64,000 nt of DNA. Source: a virus. Positions 1-46,876 of this stretch are shown here, piece by piece. A program made the position numbers and the translations under genes. The first letter of the stretch is position 1; the number at the start of each line of letters is the position of its first letter. The stretch covers positions 50,214 through 114,213 of IMG/VR virus record IMGVR_UViG_3300029319_000010; one strand, given 5' to 3'. The notes below the pieces were generated by a model. The model was not told the origin of the DNA, did not search any database, and worked only from the letters and a program-made list of their open reading frames with translations.

Positions 1-1092
1 AACAATAGCTGTAAGAGCTTCTTGTATCATAGAATTGCCGTATTTATCAATAAAGGGCGGCATAGACCATTGTTCTGGTATAAAAAGACCTGCAATACCA
101 ATACCTCCCTTTTCATCCATTAGATCTGTTTCTACAGCAAATATATCATTTGCCTGTGGATTAAGTATCATTTCTTTTAATGGGTTGCATTGATCAAGAT
201 CACCCACTGATCCTGCAGCAATAAACATACCTGTAGTCATCATACCTGAAGACATTGCTGGTCTAATGTACTCATATGTTTGATCCATCTTTGGTGCAAT
301 ACCAGCCTCTTCATGAAAAAAATAAGTACAAGGTCCACCTACACCTGTTGTAGCATTCTTTTCAAAAGATGCTCCTTGTATTTTAGACATAAGTCCTTTA
401 TTTGTTTTTCTATTATTTATTCTAACTTCTATCTTTTGCTCCCATAATAATACTTTCTCAGGTGTACATGGTCTATACCATGCAGTATGTTCATTAAGAA
501 ATGTCTTATATTCATCTAAAAACTTCCAAGAACCTTTATCATTAATATAATCTTTTAGTGATGCTCCCATCTTACATATAGATCCTTCTTCAAACCAAAA
601 TTGATTTATAAGTTTAGCCATATGAAAATATGATGATGCTATCTGTCTTTTCTTTAGAATAGCTGCATGTTTATAATTAAGTTCTGCTAGAAGCTCATAT
701 ATAGCCATATGATATTGTGCATCTCTTACTTTAGCAAAGCCATACTTCTTTTCCTCTTTATCAAATATTGGTAAAAAGTTTAACCACATATAGTAGTCTC
801 TTGTTAGATACCATGTTTCCTTTTTTCCTACGTAAATTACACCATCTCTACACTTTTTCTTTTGATCATTCCAATAATTTATAAAATCTTTAGATCTAAA
901 TGGTTTATCACAATAATATCCTTGCTCATTAAAAATCTTAGCCTCTTTATTAAAGAGATATGCAGTTTTATCAAAATTATATTGACCTGGCTCTTTAAAT
1001 AAAACTACTACAAACTTTTTAAACTCATCTTGTGTCTTAAAATCTGTAGTAGTCCACTTATTATCTTTATATGTAGGTATAGATTTATACAT
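1..1092 (-). CDS. terL: Terminase large subunit (partial, C-terminus off left edge)
   Basis: Packaging motor ATPase that would drive DNA into the prohead. I translated 364 codons from the ATG at 1092 to the window edge with no stop. A Walker-A-like stretch KKRQIASS lies at residues 147-154 and a Walker-B-like TYFFHEEAG at 256-264, the catalytic Glu pair being EE; a following IAAGS segment near 291 fits the coupling motif. This arrangement matches TerL of crAss-like and related phages. The nuclease domain should lie beyond the edge. The start overlaps the end of the GroES gene by 8 nt, so the two are probably translationally coupled. Late gene block. Confidence 0.85.
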   Translation of the reverse strand, partial: MYKSIPTYKDNKWTTTDFKTQDEFKKFVVVLFKEPGQYNFDKTAYLFNKEAKIFNEQGYYCDKPFRSKDFINYWNDQKKKCRDGVIYVGKKETWYLTRDYYMWLNFLPIFDKEEKKYGFAKVRDAQYHMAIYELLAELNYKHAAILKKRQIASSYFHMAKLINQFWFEEGSICKMGASLKDYINDKGSWKFLDEYKTFLNEHTAWYRPCTPEKVLLWEQKIEVRINNRKTNKGLMSKIQGASFEKNATTGVGGPCTYFFHEEAGIAPKMDQTYEYIRPAMSSGMMTTGMFIAAGSVGDLDQCNPLKEMILNPQANDIFAVETDLMDEKGGIGIAGLFIPEQWSMPPFIDKYGNSMIQEALTAIV

Positions 1093-1354
1093 CCTCTATA
1101 GCCCAAATATCTTGTTGCTTTAATAGAATATGTTCATCTCCCATATGAGATACTTTTACAGGTTGAATAAATTGATTAAATAGAACAACTTCACCTTCAT
1201 GTATACCTTTAACATCATCTCCAATTGCTACAACTGTTCCTTTGTCTTCTGACTCTTGTGCTGTTTCTGGTATATAAATACCACTACTTGTTTTTTCTTC
1301 AGCTTTGTGTCTTATAATTAGGAGCCTGTCTCCTACTGGTCTTATACTTTTCAT
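1085..1354 (-). CDS. groES: GroES-like co-chaperonin
   Basis: Small co-chaperonin that would cap GroEL rings. The N-terminal pattern IRPVGDRLLI, the central GIYIPETAQE, the GTVVAIGDD strand and the ending KQQDIWAIED follow the GroES family across its length. From the ATG at 1354 the protein has 89 residues, close to the family length of about 95. An upstream in-frame ATG at 1378 would add eight residues without family support and overlap the preceding gene by 14 nt. It lies between a 172-residue gene and TerL in the packaging block, where a phage GroES would most simply assist capsid protein folding by host GroEL. Confidence 0.9.
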   Translation of the reverse strand: MKSIRPVGDRLLIIRHKAEEKTSSGIYIPETAQESEDKGTVVAIGDDVKGIHEGEVVLFNQFIQPVKVSHMGDEHILLKQQDIWAIEDV

Positions 1355-1364
1355 AGTTTTAAAT

Positions 1365-1883
1365 TTATAATTGATCATATGCTAACCCTTGTCCACCGCG
1401 GACAGAGCTTTTTTGTTCATCTTTCATATCATTATATGCTCCTTTAAATGACTGTCTTATTTGGTCAAATTTAGCAGCAGTATTAACTAAAGATGTTAAA
1501 TTACCGTCTCTACCATGTTCTATAGATGTAGTTTCCATATATCTTGCTAATCTATCTAACATTGTCTTAATACCTTTATATGCTCTATATGTAGGCGTTT
1601 GATATAATTCTTTACAAGTATCTAAACCATGTCTTATTGGACCATCCTCTGGTGAATCCTCTAAACCTATTTCTTCTATAATCATATCTTCTTTTTCATG
1701 CTCAGGCATATTAAAAAATGGATTCATATCAGGATCAGGACATGTCATGTAAAATATATACTGATATATAGACAAATAAGTTTTAGGATATTTATCCATA
1801 ATAGTCTTTAGAGACTTTAATGTATAGCAGTGTTCAGTAGGAACAACTTTGCCATTTTGTATGTCAAATAATTTTATTAGCAT
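1365..1883 (-). CDS. Unknown acidic protein upstream of groES/terL
   Basis: 172 residues, not recognised. The middle is acidic (MIIEEIGLEDSPEDG) and the C-terminal half looks helical. Its place two genes before TerL makes a small-terminase or packaging accessory role possible, but no HTH motif is evident, so this is position-based inference only. Its start overlaps the stop of the PD-(D/E)XK gene by 7 nt and its end abuts groES. Confidence 0.75.
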   Translation of the reverse strand: MLIKLFDIQNGKVVPTEHCYTLKSLKTIMDKYPKTYLSIYQYIFYMTCPDPDMNPFFNMPEHEKEDMIIEEIGLEDSPEDGPIRHGLDTCKELYQTPTYRAYKGIKTMLDRLARYMETTSIEHGRDGNLTSLVNTAAKFDQIRQSFKGAYNDMKDEQKSSVRGGQGLAYDQL

Positions 1884-2710
1884 TGTGGATTATCTTTTAA
1901 CCATTTAATTATACTTTGTACTTCATCTTTTAAATACTTTAATGTATATATTTTAATATCTTCTATTATAGGTTCACCTTGCTCATTCTTTTCTGTAATA
2001 GGATATCCATGTTCATTATCACCTATCTTTTTAAATTTTACATGTTGTATTTGTAATTTACCTATTTTTAGTTTAGGATTATGCTTTTTTATTATATAAG
2101 CATATAAACTTAACTGTAAATTATAATGATTAAGATTACAATCATCTAAATGACTTACAGGATTATACATTTTAGATGTTATACCTTCCCAGTTAGTAAA
2201 TCCTTTTTCCTTTATTTCTTTATTAGTTTTATAATCAATAATATGTATTTGATTATTAACTATAGTTACTAAATCTGCTTGACCGCATATACCTAAAGAT
2301 TTAAGATAAACAAAATGTTCTGGATATACACCATCAGAAACTTTTTGATCCGGTGCAATCTTTGTACCGCTACCATCTACTATAGGTCTAACAATAGGAA
2401 CAACTACCCCATCTCTTTCTATAGTTTTAAATTCACATAAGTTTTTTTCTCTTTGATCATGATACCAATTACCAAGTTCAATAGCTCTTTGAGATTCACC
2501 ATCCCAAGCTGCTAGTATTTCTTTTGGTGTCATACCATGCCATTTAGATCTTTTGTTTTTAGATGATTTTTTTGCTTGTGCCTCAGCATCAAACTTAGGT
2601 TTAAATAAACCAACAAAAGATGTAACACTAGTCCATTTAATAGCATCTTTTGAAAGATCTTCATTTAAACTTTCATATATGTGACCATCCTCTTTAAATA
2701 TTACTGTCAT
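1877..2710 (-). CDS. PD-(D/E)XK nuclease, Cas4/RecB-like
   Basis: 277 residues with the motifs of the PD-(D/E)XK nuclease superfamily: a GNWYH segment (His84), GQADLV with Asp146, IHIIDYKTNKE with Asp159 and Lys161, and a downstream QLSLYAY helix (Gln199). Such proteins are Mg-dependent DNA exonucleases or endonucleases. This copy sits in the late packaging block, unlike the second PD-(D/E)XK protein at 27197 in the replication block, so a role in processing packaged or recombining DNA is plausible. It overlaps the preceding gene by 17 nt. Confidence 0.8.
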   Translation of the reverse strand: MTVIFKEDGHIYESLNEDLSKDAIKWTSVTSFVGLFKPKFDAEAQAKKSSKNKRSKWHGMTPKEILAAWDGESQRAIELGNWYHDQREKNLCEFKTIERDGVVVPIVRPIVDGSGTKIAPDQKVSDGVYPEHFVYLKSLGICGQADLVTIVNNQIHIIDYKTNKEIKEKGFTNWEGITSKMYNPVSHLDDCNLNHYNLQLSLYAYIIKKHNPKLKIGKLQIQHVKFKKIGDNEHGYPITEKNEQGEPIIEDIKIYTLKYLKDEVQSIIKWLKDNPQC

Positions 2711-3086
2711 CTTCTCTAAGTTTTAAATTTTTACTCATTTGTTTTATTTTTTCATCATGCTCCTTTTTTTCATCTGCAATTATTTGTTGTTTAAGTAAAT
2801 TTTCTATTGCACCTGGCATTACTGCTTTCCATCTACCTTTTGGACATGCTGATGATAAAGCTCTTAATTTTAAACTTAAACTGCATCCACAATCAGAACA
2901 ACAGGGCTGTGTTCCATTAACAGCACATGCTTTACCTGTCTTATCTAATAAAGGACATATTTTACATTCTAGCCATCTTAATTTAGCTACAGCTTCTACA
3001 TCATCTTTTTTAAATACTTTATTCTTTACACCTTCAGTAATTTGTTTTATATTTCCTAATGCACCTAATAATTTACTTATTCTCAT
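2694..3086 (-). CDS. Small zinc-binding-type Cys-rich protein
   Basis: 130 residues. A cluster of eight Cys (41, 44, 54, 62, 63, 66, 68, 81) in the order CxxC, C, CCxxCxC, C suggests one or two bound metal ions. The segment CSDCGCSLSLK followed by CPKGRW is a pattern I know from small proteins of Bacteroidota phages with no firm function. N- and C-termini are basic and helical. It overlaps both neighbours (14 and 17 nt). Confidence 0.75.
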   Translation of the reverse strand: MRISKLLGALGNIKQITEGVKNKVFKKDDVEAVAKLRWLECKICPLLDKTGKACAVNGTQPCCSDCGCSLSLKLRALSSACPKGRWKAVMPGAIENLLKQQIIADEKKEHDEKIKQMSKNLKLREDDSNI

Positions 3087-3432
3087 TTTTAAAATCCTTT
3101 TTTTGTTGTATTTTTTTATTTAATTCAAGAAGAGCTTTTTCCATTTGTTCTAACTTATTTTTTACAGCTACAGACTTTTCATAACCTTTGTATGTAGTCT
3201 TTTGCAAATTACCTAATATATCTTTATTTCTCTTAATTGCTTTTTCAAGTTTAGTTTTGCGTAAACTAAATGTGCCTAGATTAGGTAATATAATTTTACT
3301 TGATGTTAGATTAGATAAATTATCTCTAAACTTCTCATAGAAAAAATATACTAAATCTGCAACTACATCTTTATGTACATCTGCTTTTTCTGCTACTTCT
3401 TTATAAAATTGTTTACTCTTCTTGGGATTCAA
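3073..3432 (-). CDS. IHF/HU-like DNA-binding protein
   Basis: 119 residues. The first 60 or so fit the HU/IHF fold: helices KKSKQFYKEVAEKADVHKDV and VADLVYFFYEKFRDNL, then IILPNLGTFSLRK, which corresponds to the conserved GFGxF strand. The tail is a Lys-rich helix. HU/IHF-like proteins bend DNA and are among the genes commonly conserved in crAss-like phages; here it lies near TerL. Role in DNA condensation or packaging is inferred. Confidence 0.7.
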   Translation of the reverse strand: MNPKKSKQFYKEVAEKADVHKDVVADLVYFFYEKFRDNLSNLTSSKIILPNLGTFSLRKTKLEKAIKRNKDILGNLQKTTYKGYEKSVAVKNKLEQMEKALLELNKKIQQKKDFKNENK

Positions 3433-3784
3433 AACTTAATATTTTATAATCTAATAAGATTGTTTCTTCTGTTTGTATATTCATAATAGGATTTATCTTT
3501 ATAATCTTCTTATTCTTACCTTCTTTTACTATTAAGTTTTTCTTTTCTGCTTTTGATAAAGCATTTCTACATGATTGTGAACTTTTAAAAATACCACTGC
3601 TAGATATATGCTCACAAAATTTAGTTAATTCAATAGAATCAAGTTTAGATAACTCTAATAAACAATTAAGATCTGACAAACTTATTTGTATATTATTTAA
3701 AAAGCAATAAGTAAGGATCTGATATTTTATTACCATATCCTTACTCATTCTTACTTTCTTGTCAACTTTATTAACTATAGCCAT
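3413..3784 (-). CDS. Putative winged-helix/HTH regulator
   Basis: 123 residues. The segment FKSSQSCRNALSKAEKKNLI resembles the recognition helix and wing approach of small winged-helix proteins (a segregating HTH followed by a basic turn and strand LIVKEGKNKKIIKINP). No known family is claimed. It overlaps the IHF-like gene by 20 nt and the peptidase gene by 10 nt. It could regulate late transcription or act as a DNA-binding structural protein. Confidence 0.6.
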   Translation of the reverse strand: MAIVNKVDKKVRMSKDMVIKYQILTYCFLNNIQISLSDLNCLLELSKLDSIELTKFCEHISSSGIFKSSQSCRNALSKAEKKNLIVKEGKNKKIIKINPIMNIQTEETILLDYKILSFESQEE

Positions 3785-4392
3785 GAAGTAACAATATCTT
3801 TACTATCTAGTAATGTATATGTAAAATTATTATTCCATGTATCTCTAGCTTTTCTACATATTTTCATAAATAATCTCCAATCATCATTAGAAGCTATCAC
3901 TTGACAACCTGCTGACCATTTATCTACTTGACTAGATTTTTTACCAGCATATTTAGTTGCTCTATGAATGTTAATACCAAAAAGCCCTGTTTGCGTATTA
4001 TTATCATCTAGATCATAATTATTATCCCTATTATTATCTCTATAGACTGTCATAGGGTTTTGCTGACCAAGAGCTTCATATCTACCTTGATGTTTTCTAA
4101 TCTTATGACTATGCCTATATTGACCTGGTTTTAGTACAGCAACTCCTTCTTTTCTCATTATGTTCTCAACCCAATGAGTACCTGGATCTGTTGTACAATC
4201 AAATGTATGAAATTTCCATATGCCATTTTCTTTGTAAGACAAAGTCATTAAATCATCAAATCTATTTGTAACTTTAAAACCTGTTGAAGAGTTTCTGATC
4301 CCAATTACGTTAAGATTATATTCACCTCTTGTGAAGTACTTATATTCTTTTTGTTTCATAGTCTCTTCTATTTGTTCTCTAGTATATTTCAT
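3775..4392 (-). CDS. Probable cell-wall peptidase/endolysin, L,D-transpeptidase-like
   Basis: 205 residues. The C-terminal half has FGINIHRATKY (His143) followed by WSAGCQVI (Ser160, Gly162, Cys163), the H...SxGC arrangement of the YkuD-type catalytic site. Bacterial YkuD proteins cross-link peptidoglycan; phage proteins with this pattern near lysis genes are more likely to act as wall hydrolases. No signal peptide is visible, so release would need a holin; candidates are the small membrane protein at 4833 and the 3TM holin at 35169. Lysis role is inferred from motif and context. Confidence 0.6.
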   Translation of the reverse strand: MKYTREQIEETMKQKEYKYFTRGEYNLNVIGIRNSSTGFKVTNRFDDLMTLSYKENGIWKFHTFDCTTDPGTHWVENIMRKEGVAVLKPGQYRHSHKIRKHQGRYEALGQQNPMTVYRDNNRDNNYDLDDNNTQTGLFGINIHRATKYAGKKSSQVDKWSAGCQVIASNDDWRLFMKICRKARDTWNNNFTYTLLDSKDIVTSWL

Positions 4393-4757
4393 GATTTTGC
4401 ACGTTTTAAAGATCTTTTCATATCTTTCTTAATAGATTCTGCCATTTCCTTTCCGGATTTAGCAGCAGATTCAACAGAACTAAGATCTGGTTTTACATTC
4501 GTAGTTGGAGAAGGTGTGGAAGGTGCAGCAGGCATATCATCATTACCTGGACCTGCCATACTTTGAGCAATAAACATTTGTGCCTGTAATCTTTCAGCAC
4601 GTGTTTTTTCTATATCTCTTAAGAGACCTTCATATTCTAACTGAGTTTTAAGAGATGGAATTGTGCTTTTATAATAAGCATGAATCTCTTTTCTTTTCTT
4701 TTCCATTTCCTCCTTAGACATTTCTGCAGGATTTGGAATATTGGTTTCATTTGCCAT
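4389..4757 (-). CDS. Unknown helical protein
   Basis: 122 residues. An N-terminal charged helix (KEEMEKKRKEIHAYYKST) is followed by a long helix, a Pro-rich linker (PAAPSTPSPTTNVKP) and a basic amphipathic tail. Not recognised. It is the first gene after a host-type promoter box (4786-4793), so it may begin its own transcript with the lysis and packaging genes downstream. Confidence 0.65.
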   Translation of the reverse strand: MANETNIPNPAEMSKEEMEKKRKEIHAYYKSTIPSLKTQLEYEGLLRDIEKTRAERLQAQMFIAQSMAGPGNDDMPAAPSTPSPTTNVKPDLSSVESAAKSGKEMAESIKKDMKRSLKRAKS

Positions 4758-32382: not shown

Positions 32383-33198
32383 ATGGGATATACAAGACCA
32401 AGAAAAACTACTAAAGATTACTTGGTAGCAGCACCGCTACCTAATCATGGAAAAACTTACACAGTTATTCCTCATAAAGATGTTATAGAGACAACTAAGA
32501 CTCTATTAGACAACAGTGGATTTCAGATCACTAAAGAACTTTACAGGGCAAACATGAATGCTAAAGTAGCACAAGGTGTTTATCACCTTGCTTCAGATCA
32601 AGATGAAGAAATGGGGATGATGTTTGCTTGGACTAATTCTTATGATAAAAGTACACGGTTTCAGTGTGCTGTAGGAGCTTTCGTAAATGTATGTAGCAAT
32701 GGTATGTTATGTGGAGACATGGCAAACTATGCTAGAAAACATACAGGTAAAGCAGATCATGATATTCATACTCAAATAAGTTCACAAATTAAATCAGCTA
32801 ACAAGTATTATACTAAGTTAATTGATGATAAGAATGAGATGAGAAAAATATTTCTACCTAAGAAAGATCAAGCAGAATTAGTTGGAAGATTATTCTTAGA
32901 TGAAGAGATTATTGATTCATCACAAGTTTCTTGCATAAAAGCAGAAATGAAAGAACCATCTTATGATTATAAAGCTGATCTTAATAATGCTTGGACATTC
33001 TACAATCACATAACACATGCACTTAAAAAGTCACATCCACGTACATGGATGAGTGATCAAGTAAAGTTTCATGAGTTTATGACTGCAGAATTACTTAGTC
33101 AAGCTGCACTTAAGAAGCAGGATACTAGTTGGCCTGTAGATTTTATAGCAGATATGGAAGCTCAAGAGTATGATACATTTGAAGAGTTTAAAATATAA
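32383..33198 (+). CDS. DUF932 phage protein
   Basis: 271 residues. Contains FAWTNSYDKSTRFQCAVGAF and VNVCSNGMLCGDMANYARKH, the pattern of the DUF932 (LGT-like) family, which occurs widely in phages and plasmids; function unresolved, though some members modulate host processes. One-base overlap with the radical SAM gene. Confidence 0.75.
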   Translation: MGYTRPRKTTKDYLVAAPLPNHGKTYTVIPHKDVIETTKTLLDNSGFQITKELYRANMNAKVAQGVYHLASDQDEEMGMMFAWTNSYDKSTRFQCAVGAFVNVCSNGMLCGDMANYARKHTGKADHDIHTQISSQIKSANKYYTKLIDDKNEMRKIFLPKKDQAELVGRLFLDEEIIDSSQVSCIKAEMKEPSYDYKADLNNAWTFYNHITHALKKSHPRTWMSDQVKFHEFMTAELLSQAALKKQDTSWPVDFIADMEAQEYDTFEEFKI

Positions 33199-34034
33199 TG
33201 CCAATAAAATATCAAAAGACTAGAACATTAGTTACCAAGACAAATAACAATAGTAGTGACTGCATAGCACCAAATATAATTTACGGGTGCTACGGGGGCT
33301 GTGTAGACACCTATTGTTATATGTCTAGGTTTAATGGTAATAGAGTATTTGTTAACAAAAATGTTAATGATATATTTAATTCTGTAGTAGAATGGGAAAA
33401 ATCTTATAATAAAGTTCCTAATCAACAGGATCCTGTTTACACTATGGTAGACATTGCTTGTAATTCAGATTTAGTTTTGATGCAGAAGCATATGCCAGAA
33501 CCACTTCATGATTATCTTAAAAGGTATGATGATCATCAACAGCTTAATAGTACTATGGCTACTAAGTATCCAGGTCTGCTTAAGTTAGATGTAAATCATT
33601 TTAATAAAAGGCCACGTGTGCGTGTTAGTCTTATGCCTCAAGAGTACTCTAACATTCTAGAACCTAAAATGCAGAAGATATCGTCAAGAATAGATGATGT
33701 TAATAGGTTAAAAGGTCTAGGATGGGAAGTACATTTAAACTATTCACCTCTTGTATTTTATCCAGGATGGAGTAAAGAGTATGAAAGTTTATTTAAAGAA
33801 GTAAAAGAGAAAGCCGGTGAGAATAAATGTGAAGTTATTGCACTTACTAATCATGTTCATCAAATGAATAGAAGCAGTGAGGAAGCAAGGGAATTAATGA
33901 AATATTCTGATGAGATCAAAAATGGTAATGGAATAATGCGTTATCCTATACGCCAGAAAACAAGAGCTTTAGCTAACTTTAAAATGATCTACAGTAAATA
34001 TTTTAATTTACAAACTATTAGATATATATTTTAA
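33198..34034 (+). CDS. Radical SAM protein, spore photoproduct lyase-like
   Basis: 278 residues. IIYGCYGGCVDTYCYMSRF gives three Cys (31, 35, 40) in CX3CX4C, one residue longer than the CX3CX2C of classical radical SAM proteins; the following FVNKNVNDIF mirrors YVNxxEI of spore photoproduct lyase. In the second half VRVSLMPQEY, SRIDDVNRLKGLGWEVHLNY and SPLVFYPGWSKEYESLF match the SPL core (RIxAAxxVxxAGY...P..YYEGW). Likely acts on DNA, perhaps on pyrimidine lesions, via a 4Fe-4S cluster. Not proven that this family member has lyase activity. Confidence 0.75.
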   Translation: MPIKYQKTRTLVTKTNNNSSDCIAPNIIYGCYGGCVDTYCYMSRFNGNRVFVNKNVNDIFNSVVEWEKSYNKVPNQQDPVYTMVDIACNSDLVLMQKHMPEPLHDYLKRYDDHQQLNSTMATKYPGLLKLDVNHFNKRPRVRVSLMPQEYSNILEPKMQKISSRIDDVNRLKGLGWEVHLNYSPLVFYPGWSKEYESLFKEVKEKAGENKCEVIALTNHVHQMNRSSEEARELMKYSDEIKNGNGIMRYPIRQKTRALANFKMIYSKYFNLQTIRYIF

Positions 34035-35168: not shown

Positions 35169-35570
35169 TTATTGTTTCTTCTTATTAAATTTTTCAACAG
35201 ATCTACCACCAAAATAGGCACCAATCACTGTTATTAATACTAACTGTAGAAGATCAGTCCACTTTTCTTCTACGGTAAATGTTAATGCACCAGCATCAAT
35301 AAAGATCAATAACATAGTACATACTATTAAAAATATAAGAACCATAGGTCTTACATTTTTACTTAACCAACTATCAGAATTCATATCTGCCGTCCAACGG
35401 TCAGTTATATTTTTTTCCATTTGAGCTTCATGATTCATGATTAGCTCTTTTAGTTTTCTTTTAGCGTCTAGTTTTTCTTCATCTGTTGTTACTAAGTTAT
35501 CTATCACACCACCAACTGATTCTACCAAGTTGCTTCCGGCACCTGAGAAAATCTTTTTTAGTATACTCAT
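35169..35570 (-). CDS. 3TM holin
   Basis: 133 residues. DRWTADMNSDSWLSKNVRP followed by VLIFLIVCTMLLIFIDAGAL and QLVLITVIGAYFGGRSVEK matches the three-TM holin family (GTA_holin_3TM type). The N-terminal helical part is charged. It would form lesions that release lytic enzyme at the end of infection. The putative endolysin is in the left block at 3775. Confidence 0.8.
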   Translation of the reverse strand: MSILKKIFSGAGSNLVESVGGVIDNLVTTDEEKLDAKRKLKELIMNHEAQMEKNITDRWTADMNSDSWLSKNVRPMVLIFLIVCTMLLIFIDAGALTFTVEEKWTDLLQLVLITVIGAYFGGRSVEKFNKKKQ

Positions 35571-37062: not shown

Positions 37063-38136
37063 TTAAAGTATGATATAGTTTATTCCAAACTTGAAATCAT
37101 GCCAGTCACGGTTCCAGTATTTGTTATATTTTCCTTCAATAAAGATACCTAGGTTCTTATTGATCTTATAACCAAATATTAAACCACCTGAATAATCTAT
37201 CCAATTGCCACCATTAAAATTATGATATGAGTACTCACCCCCTGTATCCAAATGCACCGGTAGTAGGTTCGCCCAAGAATGAAACCATATTGTTTTAGTG
37301 TAGTGATAGTAGTCTAAACCAACTACTAGAGAATGACACCACTGAACAGGTAATGCATCCTTTTTTGATTTCACATAATCATTAAGAACTTGGGGGACCA
37401 CTACCTCTTCCCATACTTCACTACTTGTAGCCACGACTGCTCCACTAGGGTCTAAGTAGCTTATTCCTGTTGGGTCAAACCCAATTGTGTAGCCTTCCTC
37501 TAAAGCAAGGTTTGTGTAGTGTATGTTTCCATTAGATAGTACCCACTCAGCTAAAGGGTCATAACCGTAAGGTTCTGATATTCTTTGTACAGCTCCTGCA
37601 GTAACTGAAAGTTTTCTACCTATCTTTTGTCTATATCGTTGTGACGCTTCCATGTATTCTACATCAGCAAAGCCGTCTTGTAAGTACTCTATCTTAACCA
37701 CCCATCTATCTGCTAAGTATCGTAAAAAGTGATGTTGGTCTACATAAGAGTTACCTTGTTGTCTTTTATAATCTGCCTCAAACAAAAACTCAAATCCTCT
37801 AGTTCGTCCAATAGTAGCGGCATCAGAGTAAGAAGTTTCTGTACCATCTTTGAATGTATTAGCTTTATTCTCGTATCCAAATCTTTGTATCTTTCTTACA
37901 CCTACAGTAAAAGCATAGTCAAATGGAGTTTCTATTACATCGGTTTGAAGTCCATCTAATATAGAATATGTATTCTGATCTGAAATAGAGGTACCACCAT
38001 TTACTGCAGCGTAGAATGTAGAGAACTTAAAAGTTTTCTTAAGTTCTGTTTTAAACTTGCTATCCTGAGCACAACACTTTTTAGGTGCTACACAAGACAA
38101 TAATAGTAATAATATGGTTAGTAGTATTTTTTTCAC
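37063..38136 (-). CDS. Exported beta-barrel-like outer membrane protein
   Basis: 357 residues. N-terminal signal KKILLTILLLLLSCVAPKKC followed by CAQDSKFK: either lipobox LLSC or cleavage after CAQ, common in flavobacteria. The rest alternates charged and aromatic strands and ends FKFGINYIIL, as in outer membrane barrels. Starts in a 4-nt overlap with the T9SS gene, so the two are coupled. Would insert in the host outer membrane during infection, possibly altering receptors. Not recognised as a named family. Confidence 0.65.
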   Translation of the reverse strand: MKKILLTILLLLLSCVAPKKCCAQDSKFKTELKKTFKFSTFYAAVNGGTSISDQNTYSILDGLQTDVIETPFDYAFTVGVRKIQRFGYENKANTFKDGTETSYSDAATIGRTRGFEFLFEADYKRQQGNSYVDQHHFLRYLADRWVVKIEYLQDGFADVEYMEASQRYRQKIGRKLSVTAGAVQRISEPYGYDPLAEWVLSNGNIHYTNLALEEGYTIGFDPTGISYLDPSGAVVATSSEVWEEVVVPQVLNDYVKSKKDALPVQWCHSLVVGLDYYHYTKTIWFHSWANLLPVHLDTGGEYSYHNFNGGNWIDYSGGLIFGYKINKNLGIFIEGKYNKYWNRDWHDFKFGINYIIL

Positions 38137-41100
38137 AACTTAATTATTTTCTTGGTTATTCTTATTTTATCATATGTAATAATCAAATTATACATTCCAT
38201 CGGGATAATCTGATAAATCTATTCTTTTAATATTATCTGTTTGTATAATCTCTCCTACCATATTATATAGTTCTACATCAACATCTAGTCTTGTTTCTAT
38301 AGTAAATGTATTTGCTGTAGGATTGGGGTATACAATTATATCACTACCTGATAGCTCATCTAAGTTAACTGGCCATCCTTCTTCACAATAATTATACATA
38401 GATTGACAGGTCTCATCCCATACCTCAGTACAACAATAGTTATCTATATCTATAACCCAAGCATAACAAGGATCATTTAACCAATAAGGTTCTCCAGGTC
38501 CACCATAGCAACCAGCATCATAAAGACAAGTGGTATTATCTGGTAAGTTAACTAACGGATCATAGTTATATGCATTAGGATCAGCACATCCTTCTATTAT
38601 AACTACACAACTACCATCATCAAAACAAGCATCTTCATCATAGTTTAGTGCAGTACTATCTGTACAACCTCCAACATAACAACATGAATTATCTAAAGTA
38701 TTTGCTAACGGATCAAAGTTAAGAGCCATTGTGTCTGTACAACCATATACAAATTCTATACACGTACCATTATCTGTATTTGCTAATGGGTCATAGTTAA
38801 ATGCAGTAGAATCCATGCAACCATATACATAAGGTATACAGTTACCGCTATCAGTATTTGCAGTAGAATCATAATTAAACATGGTAGAATCCATACATCC
38901 TATAATAACACCTTCACAGCTTCCATCATCTGTATTGGCATCTGCATTATAGTTAAAAGCCTCTGGATTGGTGCAACCTAGTATAGGGTATATACATCCA
39001 TTATTAGTATTTGCTAACTCATTATAATTTAACGCAGTTGAATCTGTACAACCAATCACAACATCAATACATGAGCCGTTGTTTGTATTTGCTGTGGCAT
39101 TAAAATTAAATGCACTTGGATCTGTGCATCCATATATAGCATATATACACCCTGAATTAGTATTAGCGGTAATTTGATAATTTAAAGCTGTATCATCAGT
39201 GCATCCTATTACTACTGGTTGACATGAATCATCATCAATATTAGCATTTACATTAAAGTTAAATGCTGTTGGGTCAGTACATCCTAGAACAGGATATACA
39301 CAACCTGAGTTAGTATTAGCTAGTTGATCATAGTTTAGTGCTGTATCATCTGTACACCCTATAACAACATCAACACAACTATTGTCAGTAGTATTAGCTT
39401 GTGGATTATAGTTAAATGAATCAGGATTTGTACAACCATAAACAAATGAAATACATCCTACATTTGTGTTAGCAGTTTCATCATAATTATATGCTTCAGG
39501 ATCCGTACATCCATATGCAAACTCTATACATGATCCATCATCAGTGTTTGCATTAACATTAAAATTAAACATTGTAGGATCCATACAACCATATACAAAT
39601 GGCTCACATGGATTATTTTCATCTGCTGTATTAGCTTCTGCATTATAATTAAATGCTGTTTCATCTAAACAACCGTATATAAATGGTTCACATAAATTAT
39701 TATTTGTGTTAACATCTACACCATTTATTCCTGTTAATGGATTTCCTACTCCATCATTATCATAATCATTATATGTATAAGAGTTTGGATTTAAACAACC
39801 ATATACAAAAGGATAACATGAGCCATCATCGGTATTAGCTAGCTCATTATAGTTAAATTGATTTGACTGTGTACAACCTTCAACAACTGGTTCACAACTA
39901 TCATCATCTACATTTGCATCTGGATAGTAATTAAATGCTTCATCATCTGTACAGCCATACACTATTTCTATGCAAGAGTCATTATCTGTATTAGCGTCTT
40001 CATCATAGTTAAACGCAGCAGAGTCTGTACAACCATTAATAACAGGCTGACATGATCCTGGTTCTAGAGTATTTGCTTCTTGATCATAATTAAATGCTAA
40101 TGGGTCTGTACAACCTAATATAGTTGGTATACAAGGATCTGTTTCATCTTCAACAGCTACTTGATTAACTGTTGCTAGTTCATTATAGTTATATGCAGTT
40201 TCATCTATACAGCCGAATATAGCATATACTTCACATGTTCCATCATCAAAATCTGCTTCTATTGCATTTTGTTCTATATAATTATAATATTCAATATAAG
40301 CTGCATCAGTACAACCAGGGTTGTAATAACAGTCATTACTGCTTGTATTTGCTATTGGATCAAAGTTAACTGCTTCTAAATCTAAACAACCATAAATTTT
40401 AGGAATACAGTTATTACCACACAGAGCTTGACCTTGATATAGAAAGTTGTATTGATTATAAGAAAGTATTGGATTTGTATAAGGGTTAGTTCCACCTTCT
40501 AATATAATGTCTCCTATAGGGTTAATTATTTCAAAGCTGCATTGTTCTGTTGTTTGTTGAGATTGACCAAAAGAATAAAAATAAGCTTTAACCATTTCAC
40601 TGGTATTAAAATTAATTTCAGTTTCAAAAACTGTTTGATCACTTTGTAATGTAAAAGGCCCCCACCACTGATCACCTTGTGTAACTACTAAAAATGAACC
40701 TGCCCAACCATTATCAGCCCAATCCGTCAATCTTAATGTATTTGTACAATTAGGGTTTGATAGTTGTGTATTTGCATCAGGGTTAAAATTAAAAGCATCA
40801 GGGTTTATACAGCCAAATATTCTTTCTGTTTCACATGATCCGTCATCTTCATTAGCATAAGGGTTAAACTCTAAATACTCATTGTTTGTACATCCTTGTA
40901 CAGTCTCTGGTGCACATGGTGTTACTTGACCAACATCAATTATAAGCTCTCCAAAATCACCTATACCTTCTGATATTGTATCACCACATTCTGTATATAC
41001 CGCCCAAGTACCATCTATACCACCCCATTGAGCTCCACCAAGACCATCTCCATATGAGTCTTGTAACCAAAACATTATGTTAGTATTGTCATCAATGCAA

Positions 41101-42299
41101 GTTTGATATTCTACTGTAGTACCTACTGGCACACCACAATACGTTGTGTTATCATTTACTTCTGCTAAAGGTGTTCCATCACCATACTGATCATATATTA
41201 TCCAACTAGTTTCACAGCCATACTGATCCACCATTATTTCAACTGTAACTAAAGTTTTACCTGCTGTGCATGTTATATCTCCTCCATTACATGAACCATC
41301 GTCTGTAGTTGCTGCAGGGTTATAACTAGCTGCTTCTGGGTCTGTACAACCTGGTATGTTAATACAAGATCCATCATCAATACCTGCTTCTTCATTATAG
41401 TTTAATGCATTTGGGTCTGTACATCCATAAATAAAAATACAAGGATCTACCTGCCATGTTTCTCCTACTACAGCATTTACATTTACACCTGGAGTATTTG
41501 TATTAGGGTTTCCATCTGCTTCTGCTTGTGTTGATACTACATAGATTAATGTTGTGGGTGAATTACAACCTCCACCATCAAAAGCTACAGCATCTATAAA
41601 CCATTGTTGTCCATTATCACCAACATATATTCTTGCACCAATTTGTAGAATATCTTGATATTGTAAATAAAATTCGGGATCAACTCCAAAGTGAGTATTA
41701 GTAAAGGATACCAAGTTACATGTTGAACCTGGTGTTATAATGCCTGTTGGTATATCTGCTGCAAGTGGATTATAATTAAATGCAAACTCATTTATACATC
41801 CATAAATATATGTACAACTACCATCATTAATTAAGGCATCTTCGTTAAAGTTTTCTGCTAATTCATCTGTACAACCTTGTAAAGGAGGAGCACAAGGTGC
41901 TATAGTTAATGTATCTACTAAAGATATTGGTCCGCTAGGTTCTGTTGTTAGTACTGAATCTTCATAAAAAGCACCTTCTACATACATTAAACTATCTTGA
42001 CAAGCATTACTTATTGAAAACCATCCATTATTACCACCCCAAAAAGATCCAGCTAAACCATCACCATAAGCATCATTTAATGAAATAATATATTCACCTG
42101 CTGGTATACTTATTATAGTATCATGTAAAAATTCTGGCAATAAAAATGGTTCATTTACAGCTATTGCAGCACCGCTAATATCATAAAGTTCCCATGATGT
42201 TTCACCAGGATATTGGTCTGTTTGTAACTGTATATGTATCCAAGATTCTTGAGTAAATACTAGTATAGGAACTAGTAATAAGAATATTAGTTTTTTCAT
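38133..42299 (-). CDS. Giant secreted repeat protein with T9SS sorting domain
   Basis: 1388 residues. Signal peptide MKKLIFLLLVPILVF; then two short beta domains resembling WIHIQLQTDQYPGETSWE with AYGDGLAGSFWGG; then about 29 Cys repeats of the form GCTD..A.NYN..AN plus DDGSC, each with two Cys and several Asp/Asn; then a CCTEVWDETCQSMYNYC Cys-rich piece. The last 70 residues (DIIVYPNPTANTFTIE ... DGMYNLIITYDKIRITKKII) match the T9SS type A C-terminal sorting domain: PNPT, GxIxxxxxI, GxYxL, KKIIK. The Asp/Asn repeats may bind Ca. Would be exported and attached to the host surface. Unusual in a phage. Confidence 0.85.
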   Translation of the reverse strand: MKKLIFLLLVPILVFTQESWIHIQLQTDQYPGETSWELYDISGAAIAVNEPFLLPEFLHDTIISIPAGEYIISLNDAYGDGLAGSFWGGNNGWFSISNACQDSLMYVEGAFYEDSVLTTEPSGPISLVDTLTIAPCAPPLQGCTDELAENFNEDALINDGSCTYIYGCINEFAFNYNPLAADIPTGIITPGSTCNLVSFTNTHFGVDPEFYLQYQDILQIGARIYVGDNGQQWFIDAVAFDGGGCNSPTTLIYVVSTQAEADGNPNTNTPGVNVNAVVGETWQVDPCIFIYGCTDPNALNYNEEAGIDDGSCINIPGCTDPEAASYNPAATTDDGSCNGGDITCTAGKTLVTVEIMVDQYGCETSWIIYDQYGDGTPLAEVNDNTTYCGVPVGTTVEYQTCIDDNTNIMFWLQDSYGDGLGGAQWGGIDGTWAVYTECGDTISEGIGDFGELIIDVGQVTPCAPETVQGCTNNEYLEFNPYANEDDGSCETERIFGCINPDAFNFNPDANTQLSNPNCTNTLRLTDWADNGWAGSFLVVTQGDQWWGPFTLQSDQTVFETEINFNTSEMVKAYFYSFGQSQQTTEQCSFEIINPIGDIILEGGTNPYTNPILSYNQYNFLYQGQALCGNNCIPKIYGCLDLEAVNFDPIANTSSNDCYYNPGCTDAAYIEYYNYIEQNAIEADFDDGTCEVYAIFGCIDETAYNYNELATVNQVAVEDETDPCIPTILGCTDPLAFNYDQEANTLEPGSCQPVINGCTDSAAFNYDEDANTDNDSCIEIVYGCTDDEAFNYYPDANVDDDSCEPVVEGCTQSNQFNYNELANTDDGSCYPFVYGCLNPNSYTYNDYDNDGVGNPLTGINGVDVNTNNNLCEPFIYGCLDETAFNYNAEANTADENNPCEPFVYGCMDPTMFNFNVNANTDDGSCIEFAYGCTDPEAYNYDETANTNVGCISFVYGCTNPDSFNYNPQANTTDNSCVDVVIGCTDDTALNYDQLANTNSGCVYPVLGCTDPTAFNFNVNANIDDDSCQPVVIGCTDDTALNYQITANTNSGCIYAIYGCTDPSAFNFNATANTNNGSCIDVVIGCTDSTALNYNELANTNNGCIYPILGCTNPEAFNYNADANTDDGSCEGVIIGCMDSTMFNYDSTANTDSGNCIPYVYGCMDSTAFNYDPLANTDNGTCIEFVYGCTDTMALNFDPLANTLDNSCCYVGGCTDSTALNYDEDACFDDGSCVVIIEGCADPNAYNYDPLVNLPDNTTCLYDAGCYGGPGEPYWLNDPCYAWVIDIDNYCCTEVWDETCQSMYNYCEEGWPVNLDELSGSDIIVYPNPTANTFTIETRLDVDVELYNMVGEIIQTDNIKRIDLSDYPDGMYNLIITYDKIRITKKIIKL

Positions 42300-42302
42300 A
42301 TT

Positions 42303-42626
42303 TTAAAATTTATTAGCAAGTATTTCGTCAATATATGCTTGCACTTCTTTTGCATCTGCTTTCATAGTAAATGATATATCTGCTTGATATCTTTTTACTT
42401 CTTCACCATCATCAAATATTATAATTGTAGGAACTACTGCTATATTATGTTTTTCTTGTTGTTTTGGTTTGTCTGCTATATCTACATATGCTATATCACA
42501 ATCAACTAAATCATTACACCATTCTACATCATTTGTAGAGTTCCATCCTGCATTATATTGAACAACTTCTACCTGTCCATAGGCAATAGAAGACATCAAA
42601 CAAAATATAAAGAATATATTTTTCAT
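42303..42626 (-). CDS. Exported thioredoxin-fold protein without CxxC
   Basis: 107 residues. Signal peptide MKNIFFIFCLMSSIAYGQ cleaved after YG or YGQ. The mature part has VEVVQYNAGWNSTND, EWCNDLVDC, AVVPTIIIFDDGEEVKR: thioredoxin fold with the cis-Pro (VVPT) but no CxxC. Periplasmic thiol exchange with two separated Cys or a purely structural role. Precedes the repeat protein by 3 nt, whose many Cys pairs would need oxidation, so a folding helper is plausible. Confidence 0.7.
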   Translation of the reverse strand: MKNIFFIFCLMSSIAYGQVEVVQYNAGWNSTNDVEWCNDLVDCDIAYVDIADKPKQQEKHNIAVVPTIIIFDDGEEVKRYQADISFTMKADAKEVQAYIDEILANKF

Positions 42627-42904
42627 TTTAATCTATCTATTTTATCTTCTATACGTTTTAAATCTTCTTTTATTTCCTCAACATCATCTTGAGTATTTTG
42701 AATTGTTAAACGTATATTTTTATCTTTCATATCAAACTCCATTCTTGTTACATCTGGATTTGGTGGTACAGGTAGCTCTTTAGCCTCAGCAATATCTGCC
42801 TGTAAAACAAACCACATACTTACTAAAGTAGTAATTAAAAAACCTATTCCACCTAGTGTCTTTAGGCTTATTTCAAATTTGGAATCTTCTGATATTTCTT
42901 TCAT
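42623..42904 (-). CDS. Small TM/coiled-coil protein
   Basis: 93 residues: one membrane helix (LGGIGFLITTLVSMWFVL) then a periplasmic charged coiled coil (TQDDVEEIKEDLKRIEDKI). Shape of a spanin or tail tape-like accessory. Overlaps its neighbours by 4 nt. Confidence 0.6.
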   Translation of the reverse strand: MKEISEDSKFEISLKTLGGIGFLITTLVSMWFVLQADIAEAKELPVPPNPDVTRMEFDMKDKNIRLTIQNTQDDVEEIKEDLKRIEDKIDRLK

Positions 42905-43308
42905 TTTGTACCTCCTTTTCTCATATAACCCTGGCCTGAAAATATAATCATCTTGTCTTTGTTTGCACCTCCTCTTTTCTTTGGTGATTTCTTAGCACCA
43001 GGATTTGACGTTTTTAATTTTCTTACATTATTTGTCATTGAAGTCAACTTATTCTGATTTTCTAGAAGTTTATTTTGACTCTCAATTAGTTGGTTATTGA
43101 GTTGAAGTTGTTTAATAATCTCTTTTTGATTATTCATTATAGATTGTTGATTAAGCATTGCTTGTTCATCAGGGTTAGGAACTTTATTAGGATCCATTTG
43201 AGGAACATCTACAAAATCAGATACAGCGGGTCTACCAATCCTAGATACCTTTCTAGGACCGGCATGATTATTAGGACCTCCCGCTCTATATTGTCTAATT
43301 CTACGCAT
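42901..43308 (-). CDS. Unknown Gln/Asn coiled-coil protein
   Basis: 135 residues from MRRIRQYRAGGPNNH at 43308; the longer start at 43335 lies in the preceding gene. A Q/N-rich coiled coil (QQSIMNNQKEIIKQLQLNNQ) and a basic Gly end. Not recognised. Possibly a virion internal or tail protein. Confidence 0.6.
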   Translation of the reverse strand: MRRIRQYRAGGPNNHAGPRKVSRIGRPAVSDFVDVPQMDPNKVPNPDEQAMLNQQSIMNNQKEIIKQLQLNNQLIESQNKLLENQNKLTSMTNNVRKLKTSNPGAKKSPKKRGGANKDKMIIFSGQGYMRKGGTK

Positions 43309-43312
43309 ATTA

Positions 43313-43696
43313 CTATGAAGTTGTATCCCAGTCAATTACAATTGATCCACAAACTACTCCAAGATTAGTTGCATTAGGAGCAATTTCAAGAAATCTTGCA
43401 TTTGCTGGATTAGTAATTTCAGTTGTACCTGCTCTAGCTAAAAATTCTGTAATTGCTCTTTGCAATTTTAATGCTTCACCAGTTGTTGTTATTGATGCTT
43501 TACAATCTTTTCTAGTATGTCCTAACCAAGTACCACTATGACCAGCATCTAGAAAAAAGATTTCAAGAGTATTTGCATCTGCTATTCTCATATTAACATT
43601 ATTTCCTGATCCAACTGGATAGGATATAATATCTTCTGTGTCATCAGCATATGTCATAATCCATTTTGGTAATGCTGCTAAATTTAATTCTGCCAT
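43313..43696 (-). CDS. Virion-type protein D
   Basis: 127 residues, paralogue of 43723 (both begin MAELN, contain LPKW, FLDAGHSG/ILDAGHDS, ARAGTTEITN/ARAGSTEITN). Beta-rich and with the conserved DAGH. Likely head or tail structural protein. Confidence 0.65.
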   Translation of the reverse strand: MAELNLAALPKWIMTYADDTEDIISYPVGSGNNVNMRIADANTLEIFFLDAGHSGTWLGHTRKDCKASITTTGEALKLQRAITEFLARAGTTEITNPANARFLEIAPNATNLGVVCGSIVIDWDTTS

Positions 43697-43722
43697 GTTT
43701 AAAAAATTTATTAAGTTAATTA

Positions 43723-44148
43723 TTATGCTATTATATCTTCTACTACCTCTAAGTCAGTAACAGTTGCTCCTAAAAAAGTATTTACATCACTTAAAACATC
43801 TCCATCAAGATATATCATTCTGTTATTATCTGTATTAGTAATTTCTGTAGATCCTGCTCTAGCTACCCACCTTGTAAAATTTCTTACTATATTAAGTCTA
43901 GTAGCATCGTCATCAGCATGTGTAAATACAATTGCCATATCACGTCTTGCACCAACAACACCTTCACTATCATGACCTGCATCCAATATACACACTAATG
44001 TTTTAGTTGGTGCACCTCCTGTTCCAGTATTACAAGATTTAAAAAATACTCTTGCACCCAAACCAATAGGTACTGATACACTTTTATTTTCTCCTGTGTC
44101 TTTAGCCATAACCCACTTGGGTAGTATTGCTTTGTTTAATTCTGCCAT
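43723..44148 (-). CDS. Virion-type protein E
   Basis: 141 residues, paralogue of the 43313 protein (MAELNKAILPKWVMAKD; ILDAGHDSEGVVGARRDMAI; WVARAGSTEITNTDNNRMIY). Function inferred structural. Confidence 0.65.
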   Translation of the reverse strand: MAELNKAILPKWVMAKDTGENKSVSVPIGLGARVFFKSCNTGTGGAPTKTLVCILDAGHDSEGVVGARRDMAIVFTHADDDATRLNIVRNFTRWVARAGSTEITNTDNNRMIYLDGDVLSDVNTFLGATVTDLEVVEDIIA

Positions 44149-44190
44149 ATTTAAAATATTTTAATTGTTTATATTCTTGTTTGTTATATT

Positions 44191-44691
44191 TTATAAAACC
44201 CTATTAGGTCCTGCTCCTCCTCTTGCTCCTTTTGCTCTGTTATAAGCTACAAGTTCAGTTGCTAAATTATTAGATCTTGTTGTATTTCTACTTTGTGCAT
44301 CTGTTCTTGCACGTAATGCTACATTATAACGGCTTAGATCTGCTGGGTCTAATGTATAATAAGCCAGTCTATCAGCAGTAACCGCACCTCTAGTGCCCGG
44401 ACTTACACGTCTTGCACTTCTATATATAGCAGGATTAGGTGCATCTGGAACAGTCTCTGGTGCAAATTTACTTTGTCTTGTACTAGGTTTTATTAAAACA
44501 TCTCTATTAATAGGATTTCTTGTACCTTTTGTTTGAAATTTTGCTGAAAACTTACTTGTAGGAAGTGGGGTTTCTGGTTTAACCAATAACTGTGCAGATA
44601 AATTATTACTTGGCGTAATACTGTTTAATGCATCGTTTGTTCTTTGACCATGAGATTGTTTCTCTTGGTCTGCTCTTTTTCTTGAAGCCAT
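44191..44691 (-). CDS. Basic protein with GPNRVL end
   Basis: 166 residues, Arg/Thr/Asn-rich and probably disordered (KRADQEKQSHGQRTNDALNS; ARTDAQSRNTTRSNNLATEL), ending KGARGGAGPNRVL. First gene of the leftward block, after the motif at 44738. Not recognised. Confidence 0.6.
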   Translation of the reverse strand: MASRKRADQEKQSHGQRTNDALNSITPSNNLSAQLLVKPETPLPTSKFSAKFQTKGTRNPINRDVLIKPSTRQSKFAPETVPDAPNPAIYRSARRVSPGTRGAVTADRLAYYTLDPADLSRYNVALRARTDAQSRNTTRSNNLATELVAYNRAKGARGGAGPNRVL

Positions 44692-45016: not shown

Positions 45017-46876
45017 ATGGAATTGAATAACAAGATTCTAAGTGATATTACTGTCCACATGAAATATGCACGGTATAATCCTGAATTAAAAAGAAGAGAG
45101 ACCTGGGAAGAACTGGTCACTAGAAATATGAATATGCACCTTAAAAGATATCCTAAACTATCAGATGATATAAAAGGGGCCTATGATTACGTGCTTGATA
45201 AAAAAGTACTACCATCTATGAGATCTATGCAGTTTGGTGGCAAACCAATAGAAATTTCTCCTAATAGAATATATAACTGTGCTTATCTTCCTATAGATAG
45301 TGTAGATGCATTTAGTGAAACTATGTTTTTGCTACTTGGAGGAACCGGTGTTGGTTACTCTGTACAAAGACATCATGTAGATAAACTACCACTAATCAAT
45401 AAACCATATAAAAAAAGAACAAGACGTTACCTAATTGGTGACTCTATAGAAGGCTGGGCAGATGCTATTAAGATGTTAATGAAGTCTTACTTAAATGGTA
45501 AAAGCTCACGCATAGTATTTGACTATTCAGATATTAGACCTAAAGGTGCTAGGTTAGTAACATCAGGTGGTAAAGCTCCTGGCCCACAACCATTAAAAGA
45601 ATGTATACTTAAGATCACAGGTGTTCTTCAAAATAAAGAAGATGGTGATTCACTTAGTACACTTGAAGCACATGATATTATATGTTACATAGCTGATGCT
45701 GTATTAGCTGGTGGGATTAGACGTGCTGCTCTTATTAGCTTATTTAGTGCTGATGATGATGAGATGATATCTTGCAAGTCTGGTGCATGGTGGGAGCTTA
45801 ACCCTCAGCGTGGTAGAGCTAATAACTCTGCTGTTCTAATGAGACATAAGATAACTAAGTCTTTCTTTATGGATCTATGGAAGAGAGTTGAGTTAAGTAA
45901 AGCCGGTGAACCTGGTATCTACTTTAACAATGACAAAGACTGGGGAACTAATCCTTGTTGTGAGATTGCTTTACGTCCTTTTCAGTTCTGTAACTTGTGT
46001 GAAGTTAATGTAAGCAACATTGAATCTCAAGAAGATCTTGAACTAAGAGTTAAAGCTGCTGCATTTATAGGAACACTTCAAGCGGGATATACTAACTTCC
46101 ACTACCTCAGACCAGTATGGCAAGAGACTACAGAAAAAGATGCACTTATTGGTGTATCTATGACTGGTATAGGATCTGGCAGAATACTTGGGTATGATAT
46201 GGAAGCTGCCGCTAAAGTAGTTAATAAAGAGAATACACGTGTTGCTAAATTAATTGGTATCAGAAGGGCTGCTAGAACAACAACAGTAAAACCTGCTGGT
46301 ACAACATCATTAACATTAGGAACTAGCTCTGGTATACATGCATGGCATAATGATTACTACATTAGAAGAATACGTGTAGGTAAGAATGAAGCTATATATA
46401 CATACCTTGCTAACAATCATCCTGCCCTTGTAGAGGATTGTGTGTTCCGTGGTCATGATACTGCTGTAATAAGCATACCTCAATCAGCTCCTAAAGGCTC
46501 TATTCTTAGAACTGAGTCTGCTTTTCAATTACTTGAAAGAGTAAAAAGAGTGGCAACGGAGTGGGTAAAGACTGGACATAGATCTGGGTCTAATACTCAT
46601 AATGTATCTGCTACTATCAGCTTAAAAGATGAAGACTGGGAGTTAGCTGGTGACTGGATGTGGAAAAATAGAGATCATTACAACGGTCTAGCTGTTCTTC
46701 CATATGACGGAGGTACTTATACCCAAGCTCCTTTTGAAGATATTTCTAAAGAAAAGTATAATGAAATGGTTAAGTCATTAATGGATATTGATCTATCTAA
46801 GATCACTGAAGAAAATGATGAAACCAATCTAACAGGAGAGCTAGCATGTGCTGGTGGTAATTGTGAAGTCAAGTAA
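45017..46876 (+). CDS. nrdJ: Class II (B12-dependent) ribonucleotide reductase
   Basis: 619 residues, RTPR-like. N-terminal NCAYLPIDSVDAF and LLLGGTGVGYSVQRHHVDKL, central NPCCEIALRPFQFCNLCEVN (catalytic Cys and Glu) and TVKPAGTTSLTLGTSSGIHA match the monomeric adenosylcobalamin-dependent type; the end ELACAGGNCEVK has the redox Cys pair. It reduces ribonucleotides to deoxynucleotides without oxygen dependence, using cobalamin from the host or medium. Lies on a rightward island between leftward late blocks. Confidence 0.9.
   Translation: MELNNKILSDITVHMKYARYNPELKRRETWEELVTRNMNMHLKRYPKLSDDIKGAYDYVLDKKVLPSMRSMQFGGKPIEISPNRIYNCAYLPIDSVDAFSETMFLLLGGTGVGYSVQRHHVDKLPLINKPYKKRTRRYLIGDSIEGWADAIKMLMKSYLNGKSSRIVFDYSDIRPKGARLVTSGGKAPGPQPLKECILKITGVLQNKEDGDSLSTLEAHDIICYIADAVLAGGIRRAALISLFSADDDEMISCKSGAWWELNPQRGRANNSAVLMRHKITKSFFMDLWKRVELSKAGEPGIYFNNDKDWGTNPCCEIALRPFQFCNLCEVNVSNIESQEDLELRVKAAAFIGTLQAGYTNFHYLRPVWQETTEKDALIGVSMTGIGSGRILGYDMEAAAKVVNKENTRVAKLIGIRRAARTTTVKPAGTTSLTLGTSSGIHAWHNDYYIRRIRVGKNEAIYTYLANNHPALVEDCVFRGHDTAVISIPQSAPKGSILRTESAFQLLERVKRVATEWVKTGHRSGSNTHNVSATISLKDEDWELAGDWMWKNRDHYNGLAVLPYDGGTYTQAPFEDISKEKYNEMVKSLMDIDLSKITEENDETNLTGELACAGGNCEVK

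Follow-up and report, generated by a model that had tools for sequence, protein, structure and literature searches.

Why would a virus encode a large repeat protein that carries the export signals of a bacterial secretion system? The question is raised by a stretch of 64,000 nucleotides (the window), which covers positions 50214-114213 of a 114,213-base IMG/VR virus record. A minus-strand gene of the window encodes a protein with a sorting domain of the Type IX secretion system (T9SS), hereafter the cargo. The initial annotation had held that this gene is not a stray host fragment, a claim strongly supported by the phage portal, terminase and capsid of the contig (phrog_6547, E 6e-96; phrog_6681, E 3e-61; phrog_11589, E 2.5e-30) and by the conserved viral cassette in which the gene lies. 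Together with a plus-strand replication block, these matches identify the contig as phage rather than host DNA. The portal is similar to those of crAss-like and Cellulophaga phages. By the relatedness of portal, terminase and capsid the contig meets the description of a crAss-like phage, without this being a formal placement in the Crassvirales. Giant minus-strand open reading frames leave both ends of the contig (window 52867-64000, 3710 aa; contig 1-4660, 1553 aa). Both could belong to a single gene of ~5260 aa that spans the contig ends, the genome then being permuted or circular. The phage also carries a spore photoproduct lyase match (window 33198-34034; PF20903, E 3.8e-17) and a B12-dependent class II ribonucleotide reductase (window 45017-46876; TIGR02505, E 3e-80, below the equivalog cut-off).

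The cargo gene lies exactly where it had been annotated, at 38133-42299 on the minus strand, with an ATG start and 1388 codons for amino acids. The proposed signal peptide was borne out by a classic N-terminus (MKKLIFLLLVPILVFTQ, residues ~1-17, 42249-42299) that is kept in complete family members. The call rests on inspection and this conservation, with no dedicated predictor. A non-repeat N-terminal domain read from the sequence (ESW..ETSWELYD..DAYGDGLAG; residues ~18-140, 41880-42248) precedes the repeat region (residues ~142-1262, 38514-41876). The repeats follow the consensus GCTDSTAFNYNxxANTDDGSC in units of 25-26 aa with two Cys each, and the cargo contains 79 Cys in total. Calcium binding by the Asp/Asn loops, for which the annotation had thought them suited, is putative. 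About 29 Cys/Asp repeats had been annotated, in line with 25 matches to a strict pattern (0.015 expected from the shuffled protein; maximum 1 in 2000) and 29-31 matches to looser patterns. Twenty-one units stand in a tandem register of 24-27 aa, and three non-repeat inserts break the N-terminal half of the region. The repeat region is hypervariable among phages except at its C-terminal end, and the Cys-rich cap that follows (YWLNDPCYAWVIDIDNYCC..WD..C; 38364-38513) is kept family-wide. AlphaFold2, run on the last 303 residues with 43 viral relatives as input, modelled the repeats at pLDDT 90-93. No solved structure resembling the repeats was seen in a Foldseek search with this C-terminal model. 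Neither the 50,697 phage records nor the 72,556 plasmid records searched contained a relative of the cargo. The gene had also been assigned to a leftward operon with phage genes, putatively a late one. The minus-strand run is indeed tight, as the cargo stop overlaps the GTG start of the next gene (38133-38136) and the cargo start lies 3 nt from the stop of the upstream gene. A scan for promoters and terminators gave results near chance.

The C-terminal domain (CTD; residues 1323-1388, 38136-38333) is of T9SS type A. A match to TIGR04183 had been proposed as a check of this assignment, and lack of a match to T9SS sorting domains as a refutation. Residues 1323-1387 score 48.4 bits with this profile, where the cut-off is 23 (E 6.9e-13), and match PF18962 with E 2.2e-11, so the assignment was not refuted. 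The computed fold agrees with the profile identity. The tail model has the Ig-like CTD fold that the translocon recognises, superposes on the CTD within the Flavobacterium johnsoniae translocon (8glk) with TMt 0.78 and rmsd 1.7 A, and further matches translocon-bound CTDs (8glj, 8gl6) and the CTD of RgpB (5ag8). All best structural matches of the C-terminal model fall on the CTD. A signal peptide and a CTD are reported to be sufficient for the export of sfGFP (reviewed in PMC9127263). Secretion of the viral cargo in vivo is inferred. The closest functional analogue is SprB-SprF of F. johnsoniae, where the gene of a huge T9SS-exported surface adhesin neighbors that of a dedicated outer-membrane protein, which the adhesin requires in order to be exported (PMC9127263). 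A big surface cargo with a co-encoded outer-membrane protein is common to both; SprF/PorP, however, serves a cargo of type B (TIGR04131), whereas the viral tail is of type A. No TIGR04131 tail was found in the cargo, with only TIGR04183 above cut-off.

Three neighboring genes on the same strand complete the cassette. Directly downstream, a gene of 357 codons (37063-38136, GTG start) encodes a signal peptide and a predicted 12-stranded outer-membrane beta-barrel. The family is well kept, with 57-99% identity to the window copy. The AlphaFold2 model shows 12 long strands (pLDDT 79, pTM 0.73), and Foldseek retrieved NanC and FapF with probability 1.00 at a TM of only 0.33-0.35, which is why these matches support the fold class alone. 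A viral model, A0A516LKJ4, is closer (TM 0.67); our guess that it belongs to Tenacibaculum phage PTm1 was not borne out, being either wrong or undetectable. The transmembrane beta-barrel fold is thus a prediction from modeling only. The barrel has no sequence relative in the PDB and, one chance hit aside, none of 63 members matched a Pfam family. Three barrel queries retrieved no relatives from the phage and plasmid records mentioned above. PorP/SprF (PF11751) was rejected as a parent family (hhalign probability 27%, 19 columns, N-terminal end only). Lacking profile similarity to PorP/SprF and carrying a different tail type, the viral genes fail as members of the SprB-SprF type B system on both features tested.

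Upstream of the cargo lies a gene for a secreted protein of 107 aa (42303-42626) whose thioredoxin fold is supported by profile matches to solved thioredoxins. Across 57 aligned members the active site reads N-A-x-W-N and the cis-Pro motif VPT is kept. An active thioredoxin making the disulfides of the cargo was rejected because CxxC is absent. The fourth gene (42623-42904) encodes a highly conserved protein of 93 aa with a single transmembrane segment, present in 130 loci, for which an inner-membrane anchor with a periplasmic coiled coil is inferred from sequence. Further leftward phage genes (42901, 43313, 43723 and 44191) adjoin the cassette (42901-44691, minus strand).

Is the cargo a lone acquisition or part of a viral system? 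A cargo-based scan of viral contigs retained 80 loci of 92. Nearly all of their cargos have a signal peptide, repeats and a tail, and the recurrent neighbors are the barrel (69 loci), the thioredoxin-like protein (65) and the coiled-coil protein (64). All relatives are uncultured contigs, some of them near duplicates. As a guard against circularity, we also searched with the barrel alone, which at least 585 viral contigs encode. Among the best 80 of these, flanks of at least 4.5 kb on either side were available for 42 loci, and every one of the 42 encodes both the thioredoxin fold and a GCTD cargo whose sorting tail is canonical in 36 and of a shorter kind, described below, in six. Seven of the 42 repeat contigs of the first set by name, which leaves about 35 additional ones. 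In 13 long phage records that have a canonical tail, the number of T9SS cargos is exactly one per record. The cargo belongs to a four-gene module and is not a lone gene, and the same four-gene cassette occurs in hundreds of marine viruses of inferred Bacteroidota hosts. In favour of a mere host gene that the phage picked up, or that mis-assembly joined to it, with no viral role, is the existence of similar repeat proteins in hosts. This explanation is effectively refuted by the complete linkage; the independent contigs and the purifying selection described below also speak against it. The barrel is moreover absent from five host bins and occurs in two others only on cassette-bearing contigs that resemble binned phage DNA. 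One record of 245 kb, IMGVR_UViG_3300030098_004828 (L194, L195), contains two copies of the cassette, which may be two separate modules or the product of chimeric assembly.

The cassette travels on at least two phage backbones, crAss-like and T4-like. The second is exemplified by contig L045, regarded as T4-like because it encodes UvsX, a gp32-like SSB and DnaB-like genes. The portal and terminase of the crAss-like backbone were not found on this second backbone. The gene order in L045 is cargo, barrel, coil, thioredoxin and endolysin. A holin-like gene lies within reach of the cassette in 50 loci, and in the window a lysis-region marker of this kind, a holin-like protein with three transmembrane segments, is encoded at 35169-35570 on the minus strand (PF11351, 25.6 bits against a cut-off of 24.8). 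The proximity of holin and endolysin genes makes a role in lysis or outer-membrane disruption one of the main rivals to superinfection exclusion. The coil would then act like a spanin and the barrel as its outer-membrane partner, while the cargo would load or weaken the outer membrane at lysis. The coil does have a weak match to Rz-like spanins (E 0.041), but no outer-membrane spanin lipoprotein was identified as its partner, and a hypervariable, horizontally swapped ectodomain is unexpected in lysis proteins. We consider a lysis module improbable.

The swapping of ectodomains is visible between close relatives. The window phage (G000) and its nearest relative (L027) share flanking cassette genes at 97-99% identity, and their cargos (1388 vs 994 aa) agree at 95% in the signal peptide and 93% in the last 200 aa but at only 47% in the middle. 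The converse is found between G000 and L002, with 96% identity in the ectodomain and 44% in the thioredoxin gene, and between L029 and L034, with 90% in the ectodomain, 53% in the barrel and 56% in the thioredoxin. DNA alignments show the same pattern of exchange. Across 58 complete cassettes, the Spearman correlation with the barrel is 0.41 for the ectodomain and 0.61 for the cargo C-terminus. Selection within ectodomain alleles is purifying (omega 0.06-0.21). On these sequence comparisons, the ectodomains are discrete, functional types that are shuffled among stable backbones while the ends of the protein remain constant. Three of the adjoining leftward genes, 43313 and 43723 (related small proteins) and 44191, are also strongly divergent from L027 (39-60%), and window 43313-44691 might be another variable locus, for surface or decoration proteins.

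The repeats are not confined to proteins with a signal peptide. Large Cys-rich, virion-like proteins without a signal peptide carry GCTD repeats near the cassette in seven of the 80 loci (L016:1240-5856, L060:369-4844, L051:1462-5907, L049, L059, L039 and L042). Such proteins could suggest that the cargo itself is a virion component, assembled on particles or coating them at release as a receptor-binding or decoy protein. We regard this as very improbable given the signal peptide and T9SS tail of the cargo itself, the lack of a virion-like version in most loci, and the finding that in six of the seven loci the virion-like repeats are no closer to the cargo of their own phage. Mimicry of the phage's own fibre by repeat similarity holds in only one of the seven testable loci, and the other six disfavour simple mimicry.

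We consider it very likely that the cargo is displayed through the T9SS as part of a functional module. Sec would export it, the host Type IX translocon would recognise its CTD, and the infected cell would then display it on the surface, or release it, as a long rod of disulfide-stapled repeats. The barrel, the thioredoxin fold without active site and the inner-membrane coil might be helpers for folding, transit or anchoring, roles that are inferred. Such display would most likely block or re-specify the adsorption of phages to the infected cell and to its debris, and would thus serve superinfection exclusion in phage-phage competition. Control of adsorption would explain the swapping of ectodomains among otherwise stable backbones. 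Among the roles suggested in the initial annotation, hypervariability favours superinfection exclusion because phage competition would select for the exchange of exposed parts and, by analogy, because other phages use envelope proteins in this way. Phage T5, for example, encodes the envelope protein Llp, which halts further adsorption (PMC9586334). Llp differs in being a small periplasmic lipoprotein that jams FhuA, neither surface-secreted nor linked to a T9SS. No role is demonstrated, and the function of the displayed cargo in superinfection is inferred and remains tentative, with doubt somewhat outweighing belief. A surface-display module serving most likely for superinfection exclusion is nevertheless the best overall explanation, although our confidence in it stops just short of even.

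Hypervariability suits any surface arms race, and is also compatible with adhesion, grazer avoidance and evasion of host defences. The displayed rod might instead convert the cell surface for adhesion, gluing infected cells together or attaching them to particles or new hosts, or hiding them from grazers or defence systems. In favour of the display module as such, marine Flavobacteriales that have SprA contain repeats and tails of the host-like kind. In favour of adhesion, GCTD repeats with T9SS tails are common among surface proteins of marine Flavobacteriales. A virulent-looking phage would gain little from adhesion, however, unless lysis is slow, and a single cargo per genome with strict linkage to helpers disfavours a generic adhesin. 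We consider adhesion unlikely, if less so than lysis. Returning to superinfection exclusion, a bolder version is conceivable but earns less trust than the exclusion role as such. The four parts would form a hitherto undescribed viral system across both membranes that assembles a swappable coat on infected marine Bacteroidota, and the ectodomain alleles would be exclusion types circulating by recombination among unrelated crAss-like and T4-like phages. Bacteroidota are major degraders of algal polymers in the ocean. If surface display for exclusion is correct, a large marine phage group recruits the host Type IX machine together with viral helpers, rebuilds the surface of the infected cell, and trades the exposed part of the displayed protein among phage lineages. 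Superinfection exclusion in Bacteroidota would then have a molecular basis that can be tested.

That phages encode T9SS cargo was already known, with Cryophage and crAss-like phages with BACON repeats preceding the present case. According to the accessible part of Bellas et al. 2020 (PMC7468147), Cryophage encodes cargos with T9SS type A tails (an endoglucanase, a GH39 protein and a PA14 protein) that are highly variable among phage variants, and superinfection exclusion was already proposed for them. The likeness to the present cargo lies in the phage origin, the tail type and the variability. The same part of that article makes no mention of GCTD repeats, a barrel, a thioredoxin fold or a fixed cassette. 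For cluster 2 of the crAss-like phages, the available portion of de Jonge et al. 2019 (PMC6949934) reports T9SS sorting-domain proteins near structural genes, one of them fused to BACON repeats. These are likewise crAss-like phages with T9SS sorting-domain proteins, but they differ in being gut phages with BACON repeats, and a cassette is not described in that portion. The repeat family, the fixed cassette, the distribution over two lineages and the tail swap are not described in either source as far as it is accessible. Full-text literature searches returned no further paper, and none for the repeat string. What looks new is the system, comprising the four-gene cassette, ectodomain exchange and two tails, and it is a serious possibility that the module in its entirety represents a distinct system.

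The second tail ends about one third of the cargos in the first set (~25). It comprises 40 residues, LIxITDLLGRPx..KNxLLFFIYDDGTVEKK, and is recognised by neither TIGR04183 nor PF18962. Its origin as a truncated type A CTD is unsupported (hhalign probability 7%). In each of six small marine Flavobacteriales bins, 9-32 proteins end in the same short tail, and most of the complete host reading frames inspected begin with a signal peptide and terminate precisely with the tail. SprA was found in four of these six bins, and all six have 20-57 canonical tails. We infer that the short tail is probably a second, unannotated class of T9SS sorting tail in marine Flavobacteriales, to which swaps in the phages also point. 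In three phage pairs (L035/L081, L028/L063 and L036/L070) the same ectodomain is joined to the canonical tail in one phage and to the short tail in the other, providing a natural test in which the two tails are interchangeable.
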